The translations under genes and the position numbers were made by a program. The notes under the pieces are model-generated. The model made no database searches. It was not told the DNA's origin and was given only the letters and a program-made list of their open reading frames with translations. 64,000 bases of DNA from Chlorobiota bacterium (lineage in GTDB: Bacteria > Bacteroidota > Ignavibacteria > OLB7). Shown in pieces: positions 35,796-51,532 of the stretch (within the stretch, counting starts at the first letter, position 1; each line of letters opens with the position of its first letter). The stretch lies in contig JAQBOZ010000007.1 of assembly GCA_028287785.1 (NCBI GenBank), positions 186,001-250,000 on the forward strand. The letters are read 5' to 3'.

Positions 35796-36066
35796 CAGAC
35801 TGTTGGAATAGTTCGGTTGTTCAACATTCTGAGCAATCATCCGAATTGCCTGGTACATCAAGGCTCTGGTTCGGGTCTGCTGAACGATCATCGAGGCAAA
35901 CCATCTTCATTCTTCAAGCTCCGTCAGGAGCGCGCCGGTTGTAGCAACGATGGCTTCCTGTTCTCTCAAGCCCCATCGGAGCGAACCATCTTAACATCGA
36001 TGAGGAATGGTTCGCTCCGATGGAGCTTGAAATCATTAAAGGCACGGCGCAACTACAGCCGGTTCG
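35796..36066 (+). repeat. Palindromic repeat family, copy 1 (left part, interrupted by copy 2)
   Basis: From about 35874 the sequence matches the 307-bp repeat family in plus orientation: the GTCTGCTGAACGATCATCG segment, the CCGGTTGTAGC arm, and the inner pair around CTCCATCGGAGC with its complement. The left terminal repeat is missing or too diverged to recognise. It stops at 36066, where copy 2 is inserted, and resumes at 36379. Bases 35796-35873 between the GT2 gene and the repeat show no gene. Confidence 0.75.
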
Positions 36067-36368
36067 GCAGTGACTCAGGTTAAGATGGTGTAGATGATGC
36101 CCAGAGTCATATCCGGCCTGCGTCTTCCCAGCCCCATGGGGGCGTACCGGTTGTAGCATCGCCATCCCCTCCATGATCCCAAGCTCCATCGGAGCGTACC
36201 ATCCTCGCATGCCGGCGGAATGGTACGCTCCGATGGAGCTTGAGTGGGAAACGGAGGCATCGTTACTACAACCGGCACGCTCCTGACGGAGCTTGAAGAA
36301 TGAAGAGAGGATCGTCGATGAATCATTGCCCTGTCAACCGGGGAGCTGGATTCAAACTGAGTCACTAC
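36067..36368 (-). mobile_element. Palindromic repeat family, copy 2, inserted inside copy 1
   Basis: A 302-base unit in minus orientation has ends GCAGTGACTCAG and CTGAGTCACTAC, which are 12-bp terminal inverted repeats with one mismatch. The 10 bases AGCCGGTTCG occur directly before (36057-36066) and directly after it (36369-36378), a target-site duplication. Within it are the nested palindromes of the family. It has no transposase gene, so it is a MITE-like, non-autonomous element. Confidence 0.8.
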
Positions 36369-36452
36369 AGCCGGTTCGCCCCGATGGGGCTGTCAGGAGA
36401 AATGCCGGATGCGCTGCATGATGCTGAACGGCATCCCAAAATGAGTCACGAT
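36369..36452 (+). repeat. Palindromic repeat family, copy 1 (right part)
   Basis: After the duplicated AGCCGGTTCG the sequence continues as CCCCGATGGGGCTG, exactly where the family consensus should go on after the CCGGTACG arm, and ends at ATGAGTCACGAT, a degraded terminal repeat. Together with the left part it makes one complete copy without its left end. Confidence 0.7.
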
Positions 36453-36576
36453 CAACTGCATCCGCCGCCGAATAGCGCGCTGACTCAGGATGTAACCGTA
36501 TGCAATCCCCCTGGTTCCCCCTGCAACCAGTAGCCGTGTTCGTTGTAATGTCGCTCGCACGAAACCAGGAACATCC

Positions 36577-40737: not shown

Positions 40738-41062
40738 CCGAAATAGTATTGAGGAAATATTACTCGCGCCCGATATTCAGAAAAACCGCCCTCCGGCAAA
40801 CGAATCATTACCGGTACTGTTGGTAAGATGATTTCTGCGCCGAAAAATGCACGCAAGCCGGGCAACGCGATGGAGATTTCCGTGATATTGTATGGCATCG
40901 CTTACCAATTGGGCCATTTGGGATCGAATATGGGGGAATCGACCGCGGAAAATGCCGCGGGGTTACGCCGCCGGATGATCGATATCGCGTGAGAATATCG
41001 TCGGCCGAGAGTGTTTTAAAATATACTTTTGATCCGACATATGCCACTGGATAAAATTATTG
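40738..41062. other. Intergenic region between a secreted-protein gene and the palindromic repeat
   Basis: About 325 bases with no gene that I can support. It should hold the promoter of the tandem secreted-protein genes and ends at the left terminal repeat of copy 3. Confidence 0.35.
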
Positions 41063-41369
41063 GCAGTGACTCAGGTTGAATCCAGTCTTCCGTCTGCTGA
41101 ACAATCATCGAGCGACGATCCATGCTTCACTCTTCAAGCTCCGTGGGAGCGCGCCGGTTGTAGCAACGATGCTCCCATCTCCCGCTCAAGCTCCATCGGA
41201 GCGTACCATCCCCGCATCCGTGCCAAATGGTACGCTCCGATGGAGCTTCAGATCACGGAAGGCGTGGCATCGCTACAACCGGTACGCCCCGATGGGGCTG
41301 GAAGGAGAGATGCCGAATGCCCTCGATGAGTCCGAACAGCATGAACCGTATCCCAACCTGAGTCACTAC
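41063..41369 (+). mobile_element. Palindromic repeat family, copy 3
   Basis: A 307-base unit with GCAGTGACTCAG and CTGAGTCACTAC at its ends. It contains the same nested palindromes as copies 2 and 4, in the same order. The flanks (AAAATTATTG left, CATCGTCCGC right) show no target duplication, so this copy is older or its flank has rearranged. It lies 150 bases upstream of the arginase-family gene. Confidence 0.75.
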
Positions 41370-41519
41370 CATCGTCCGCGACTCATCCCGGATTATTCAT
41401 CTCATGACGACCGGGATGGTTCCGGGAGATATCTTGCGCGTCATTATCCCGGCCGCGGTTGCATCGCGCGCACGAGCCGGCCCGTGCACTATCCGCCGAC
41501 GGCATTCATCGGAGCCCTT

Positions 41520-51027: not shown

Positions 51028-51099
51028 GACCGGTTCCGGGCATTGCTTCGAATACCATAAACACCATGATCGCTCGCGCAGGACGGAGCCAGATACCGG

Positions 51100-51406
51100 G
51101 TAGTGACTCAGTTTGAATCCACTCTTCCGTCTGCTGAACAATCATCGATCGGCGATCCCTTCTTCACTCTTCAAGCTCCGTCAGGAGCGCGCCGGTTGTA
51201 GCAACAATGCTCCCATCTCCCGCTCAAGCTCCATCGGAGCGTACCATCCCCGCATCCATCAGGAATGGTACGCTCCGATGGAGCTTGGAATCATGGGGGC
51301 ATGGCGATGCTACAACCGGTACGCCCCGATGGGGCTGGAAGGACAGATGTCGAATGCCCTCGATGAGTCCAAACAGTATGAACCGTATCTCAAACTGAGT
51401 CACTAC
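51100..51406 (+). mobile_element. Palindromic repeat family, copy 4
   Basis: This 307-base unit has perfect 12-bp terminal inverted repeats (GTAGTGACTCAG and CTGAGTCACTAC). It is flanked by a 10-base direct repeat, CAGATACCGG, at 51090-51099 and 51407-51416. Inside are 22-base inner arms (51226-51247 and 51265-51286), the CCGGTTGTAGC arm at 51192-51202 with its complement at 51309-51319, and four short GCTCC...GGAGC-type hairpins. The copy has no protein-coding capacity. Confidence 0.85.
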
Positions 51407-51532
51407 CAGATACCGGCATGCATTGCTTGTTCACGACAAGTTCCGTTACTCGCATCAGAAACGCGCCCTGATGCCGTCGGACAGTTGATGAAAAAGAGCC
51501 CTTGCACGATATCCATCCACTACCATGCACCC

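Follow-up and report, generated by a model that had tools for sequence, protein, structure and literature searches.

Two members of one MITE family lie one inside the other in an intergenic region of this Chlorobiota bacterium, and we are confident that the younger one entered the older in reverse orientation, by transposition through terminal inverted repeats (TIRs) with target-site duplication (TSD). In the window, by which we mean the whole 64,000-nucleotide stretch of DNA analysed, positions 36066-36369 are a complete 304-bp element (copy 2), enclosed in an older copy 1 that spans 35852-36453 and measures 290 bp once the insert is subtracted. Alignment to the family consensus puts copy 2 on the plus strand and copy 1 on the minus strand, which bears out the opposite orientations noticed in an earlier, sequence-only reading of the locus. 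The features of the composite, and the two other family copies in the window, are as follows.

35844-35851, no strand: left TSD of host copy 1, AATTGCCT, matching AACTGCAT at 6/8 positions
35852-36065, minus strand: left part of host copy 1, consensus 241-79, including the insert's first TSD copy
36058-36065, no strand: left TSD of the nested insertion, GCCGGTTC, 8/8 against 36370-36377
36066-36369, plus strand: MITE copy 2, the complete 304-bp insert, with ends GGCAGTGACTCAGG...AACTGAGTCACTACA
36131-36160, plus strand: hairpin unit 1 of copy 2 (CAGCCCCATGGGGGCGTACCGGTTGTAG), in a four-unit + + - - arrangement
36179-36243, no strand: long inner hairpin of copy 2, comprising units 2 and 3 in head-to-head arrangement, 23-nt arms, 100% complementary
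36266-36297, minus strand: hairpin unit 4 of copy 2, TTCAAGCTCCGTCAGGAGCGTGCCGGTTGTAG on the minus strand
36370-36377, no strand: right TSD of the nested insertion, GCCGGTTC, 8/8 against 36058-36065
36378-36453, minus strand: right part of host copy 1, end TGAGTCACGATC; the consensus resumes without a gap at the junction
36454-36461, no strand: right TSD of host copy 1, AACTGCAT, 6/8 against 35844-35851
41062-41370, minus strand: further family copy, 309 bp; flanking 8-mers AAATTATT and ATCGTCCG mismatch
51099-51407, minus strand: further family copy, 309 bp; TSD AGATACCG, 8/8, at 51091-51098 and 51408-51415

Excising copy 2 together with one TSD leaves a host copy 1 whose alignment to the consensus is unbroken at the junction, just as the earlier reading had held when it described copy 1 as rejoining in register. 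End to end, copy 2 shares 88% identity with the 304-bp consensus, and the left end of host copy 1 is eroded (GGTACATC). The sequence-only reading had placed the event at 36057-36378 and described it as a palindromic repeat that had transposed with a 10-bp target duplication. All of the pieces are present there, but the outer bounds are those given above. Mobility also stands, although the mobile unit is really a ∼304-bp MITE, bounded by TIRs of its own and containing four palindromic units. The 10-mer AGCCGGTTCG does occur on both sides of the insert, at 36057-36066 and 36369-36378, enclosed in a 15-mer (ACTACAGCCGGTTCG) present twice, at 36052-36066 and 36364-36378. The TSD itself is nevertheless 8 bp, the length found across the family, and the two extra matching bases are due to chance matches to degenerate element ends (GGC/ACA for GGT/ACC).

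The two-step history of the locus can be read straight from its letters. Copy 1 first entered the gap between a glycosyltransferase gene and a TonB-type receptor gene, with a TSD of the form AA(T/C)TGC(C/A)T; AATTGCCT and AACTGCAT around host copy 1 are what would be expected as remnants of this eroded duplication. Later, copy 2 entered the outer hairpin unit of copy 1 at its CCGGTT foot, and GCCGGTTC is the TSD of this insertion. The same nested pattern occurs at C2:305781-306090 and C2:335993-336296 in the same genome, making three nested insertions including the window locus. All three hosts, with the insert removed, fit the consensus gap-free at the junction, and the host at C2:305781 is restored over 304 bp with zero gaps anywhere.

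The duplication is a property of the family. We compared the left and right flanks of 52 copies at every length from 2 to 14 bp, using shuffled pairs as the control. Mean flank identity was 0.75 at 8 bp and 0.20-0.34 at all other lengths, including background values of 0.30 at 7 bp and 0.34 at 9 bp; because the peak is found solely at 8 bp, the TSD is exactly 8 bp. The flanking 8-mers match at 6/8 or better in 37 of the 52 copies, against 1.2% in the control, so the duplication is not due to chance. In 31 copies the match is at least 7/8, and 15 (∼29%) have no recognisable TSD. The flank comparison of the 52 copies revealed no motif in the target sequences. The claim that the locus holds direct sequence evidence of transposition is thus upheld, by TSDs on 37 of 52 copies and by three nested insertions that restore their hosts. 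The sequence-only reading had also held that the repeats would be a chance or recombinational artefact if most copies lacked flanking duplications and empty sites. This is not what we found, as most copies carry the duplication, at 8 bp, and a relative has the syntenic locus without the element.

The genome (G000) is a 4.75-Mb draft of 37 contigs, 95% complete, and our counts for the whole genome come from searches and retrieved stretches of DNA. A search with copy 2 found at least 40 scored copies in this genome, with matches stopping at identical terminal positions and copy lengths of 286-312 bp. The inverted repeat GGTAGTGACTCAGTTTGA is found at both ends of the element, and the aligned copies yield the 304-bp consensus with inverted ends GGTAGTGACTCAGGTTGAGA and GGTAGTGACTCAGTTTGAAT. 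The 12-bp end GGTAGTGACTCA has 95 exact matches in the genome, where we estimate about 0.6 by chance. An unbiased 420-kb stretch of contig C36 holds 12 blocks, counted as ∼14 copies, which extrapolates to perhaps ∼150 copies per genome. Contigs C2, C7, C10, C11, C17, C18, C19, C22, C24, C25, C29, C30, C31, C33 and C35 have ends inside MITE copies; with so many contig ends in copies, the true copy number is probably underestimated. Random family members average 77% identity, and several copies are near-identical, up to 97%. The near-identical copies and the contig ends within copies point to fairly recent amplification. At ∼304 bp the element is too short for a transposase and is non-coding.

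Inside each element are four hairpin units resembling REPs, in the order + + - -, of the form CAAGC(T/C)CC-ATC-GG(A/G)GCG-NACC. The RNA fold of the whole window copy is stable relative to shuffles (z = -7.4), with nearly end-to-end folding, and Rfam returned only sub-threshold generic hairpin matches. In the inner stem, two neighbouring pairs are changed on both sides in 8-9 copies, as would be expected from either structural constraint or gene conversion between the arms. Two loci in related genomes combine such palindromes with IS200-type Y1 genes. At L228 1174-2060 (G001:C25), a degenerate element of the MITE kind lies upstream of the Y1 gene and hairpin units lie at its 3' end; at L226 1000-2400 (G004:C137), the Y1 gene is surrounded by related palindromes.

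A rival reading takes the repeats for REP/BIME (REPIN)-type palindromes that an IS200-like Y1 (RAYT) transposase disseminates via single-stranded intermediates, with the duplication incidental. In support of this route, G001 and G004 have near-identical units next to Y1 transposase genes, and a Flavobacterium MAG has similar units that lack MITE ends. However, Y1 transposition is not known to leave a TSD, whereas most copies here carry one of 8 bp, and similarity between copies stops at the TIRs, far outside the hairpin units. Moreover, 50 of the 51 units in the 420 kb of contig sit within MITEs, so the palindromes of this genome move solely as part of the MITE. The Y1 genes of G000 have no hairpin units around them, and the Y1 proteins tested score as IS200, under the REP-transposase cut-off. 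The Y1 (RAYT) route as mover of the family is therefore largely refuted, and we give it very little credence; the MITE may at some time in the past have captured REP-type units.

Synteny bears on whether the composite could be an artefact. G001, a genome of the same genus, has hydrolase, glycosyltransferase and TonB-type receptor genes in the same order as around the composite, with 59% identity between the glycosyltransferases and 67% between the receptors. The gap between the latter two genes is 781 bp here, ∼610 bp of it composite, and ∼260 bp in G001 by coordinate reading, where it contains no element; this absence is by synteny, as the intergenic DNA is not alignable base by base. It is highly improbable that homologous recombination or gene conversion between two family members produced the composite, or that it is an assembly chimera of two repeats. 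The draft assembly does break contigs in these repeats, and the covariation of the inner-hairpin arms at two positions could come from gene conversion. Yet neither process predicts an intact element, exact 8-bp repeats and an in-register host with its own TSD, or the same pattern at two other loci, and the conserved gene order in G001 makes misassembly unlikely. Integration of a folded single strand, as for integron cassettes, fits an element that folds almost end to end, but tyrosine-recombinase integration of such strands is not known to give an 8-bp TSD, and with no array, common attachment site or target motif, its chances are close to nil.

By DNA similarity the element has no match in 60 relatives and none in plasmids, and the hairpin-unit pattern has no match in viral contigs. 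Nonetheless, a search by the ends alone uncovered a cousin family in G001, with elements of 266-271 bp that have the same ends, TSDs of 7/8 or 8/8 and a diverged body. The units of G001 keep the architecture and differ in stem bases (GCGCC/GGCGC, GCACC/GGTGC). In G004, a 93-bp element with related ends (GGTAGTGGCTCA...TGAACCACTACC; L158 and related loci) is present in several copies; it is a possible minimal relative of the family. A scan of genome contigs at large with the core-unit pattern matched one genome, the Flavobacterium MAG (JAGYJR010000006.1; L183 5250 and 5299), where two occurrences of the unit TAGCCCCATCGGGGCGACC(GGTTTGTAG), 49 bp apart, lack MITE ends; another lineage thus has a very similar hairpin.

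Where copies insert also fits a mobile element. Empty sites fall within ORFs of at least 200 amino acids in 37% of cases, compared to 84% of random positions, indicating an intergenic insertion bias. From this bias and the density of copies we estimate ∼2 nested copies among 52 and observe 3, so nesting needs no special preference, and we dropped self-targeting as its cause. All three nested insertions lie at the foot of a hairpin unit, too few cases for a claim. The spacing between neighbouring copies is harder to account for. In the four cases we found of facing element ends 60 bp or less apart, the spacer is exactly 8 bp (4/4; L007, L018, L185 and L251), and at L185 and L251 one of the two facing ends has no MITE body behind it. 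A further pair, L078, has a 7-bp spacer. The two elements at L018 are 74% identical, about as divergent as random family members, which makes recent tandem duplication unlikely. The 8-bp spacing is better explained by insertion next to an existing end, whose 8-bp flank is reused as the TSD; IS30 is a known element whose ends act as targets.

Two of these loci have further peculiarities. In the tandem MITE pair at L007 (G000:C19; 1801-1808 and 2099-2106), the middle and right 8-mers, GTCGGCGC and GCGCCGAC, are exact reverse complements of each other and look as if the segment between two inverted copies had flipped. At L185 1384-2615 (G000:C32), an ISAs1-family IS with a 369-aa transposase and CAGGGC ends lies exactly 8 bp from a MITE end, and its 10-bp TSD, CCTCCAATCA, includes the MITE's 8-bp TSD, TCCAATCA.

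Mechanistically, a transposase encoded elsewhere or now lost would act in trans, recognising the TIRs and cutting or copying the element, which would be joined to the target at a cut staggered by 8 bp; gap repair would then produce the 8-bp duplication. We infer that this mover is a DDE-type transposase. An 8-bp TSD with GG... ends fits IS1595, IS6, ISL3, IS256 or IS1. Of these families our searches covered IS1595, IS6, ISL3 and IS256, as well as DDE_Tnp_1 (PF12762, PF01609, PF00872, PF01610 and PF13610), in five genomes, with inspection of the flanks. None of the IS1595, DDE_Tnp_1 (ISAs1 and others), IS256, ISL3 and IS6 genes in the five genomes has matching ends; for IS1595, this covers 3 genes in G000 and 13 matches in G001/G002. 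Across these five transposase families, neither the 95%-complete draft nor the relatives yielded an autonomous element with these ends. In the retrieved DNA, nearly all sequences that match the TIR with 0-1 mismatches run into MITE-like sequence, with two solitary exceptions. A solitary end, GGCAGTGACTCAGTCTGA, lies at L268 1620 (G000:C1:224619), with 16/18 identity to the TIR, no MITE body and no partner end nearby.

Two candidate partners were rejected. The ISAs1 at C32, the sole match beside an exact TIR, is a separate IS with CAGGG ends that adjoins a MITE, and the ISL3 gene in G001 is near a MITE but does not have such ends. Nor did the contig ends hide autonomous copies, as all those inspected lie within MITE sequence. 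The autonomous partner may have been lost, may lie in the missing 5% of the genome or may belong to another family.

The kind of element is already well known. Bacterial MITEs are under 500 bp, encode no protein, have TIRs of 4-30 bp and TSDs on younger copies, are mostly intergenic and form stable stem-loop RNA (PMC10969869). Like QMITE of Coxiella, Nezha, RUP and Correia/NEMIS, the present family is short, non-coding and intergenic, with TIRs, TSDs and a stem-loop; its sequence differs, and it is G+C-rich, whereas typical MITEs are A+T-rich (PMC10969869). The 8-bp TSD, the GGTAGTGACTCA...TGAGTCACTACC ends and the lack of a parent IS among our finds further set it apart. As in BrickBuilt of Porphyromonas gingivalis, the MITE body lies between genes and is made from a repeated internal unit, which in BrickBuilt is a 23-nt tandem minisatellite and here is four hairpin units in + + - - order (PMC4596501).

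The units share with REP/BIME/REPIN a length of ∼28-30 nt, a G+C-rich stem, conserved flanks and inverted pairing and, as with RAYT, some adjoin Y1 genes, here in relatives; unlike REP, they have GTAG 3' of the palindrome and not in the 5' tag position (PMC3733652, PMC3116915). Short palindromic units in inverted pairs are thus present, but the units in G000 are not dispersed on their own with a 5' GTAG (or CGTC) tag, 50 of the 51 in the 420 kb being inside a TIR- and TSD-bearing element with which they move, and no same-genome RAYT is flanked by units, the flanked Y1 genes of G001 and G004 being IS200-type. Given the IS200-type scores and the absence of units near the G000 Y1 genes, we do not place the family in REP/RAYT. 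In TSD length and terminal GG it resembles IS1595, IS6, ISL3, IS256 and IS1, but representatives of IS1595, IS6, ISL3 and IS256 in this and related genomes do not have such ends. In particular, the family shares no ends with the genomic IS1595 elements that an IS1595-derived MITE would match.

Altogether, these copies make up a new MITE family, for the present an orphan, whose body is a hairpin array. One could go further and suppose that the body is a captured REP-type hairpin array of an IS200-like Y1 system, a single repeat serving two unrelated transposition mechanisms, with new copies preferring hairpin feet or the 8-bp flank beside an older copy; we consider this unlikely. Through its self-nesting, what had been dispersed palindromes become a mobile family for which the ends and the TSD length are exactly defined. 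The family is its own natural internal control, as host copies act as empty sites, so that insertion order, target choice and TSD decay are readable within one genome. The hairpin units have been kept in the elements of related species though much other sequence has diverged, which makes a role of the hairpin, as target, as RNA structure or for a second transposase, testable.
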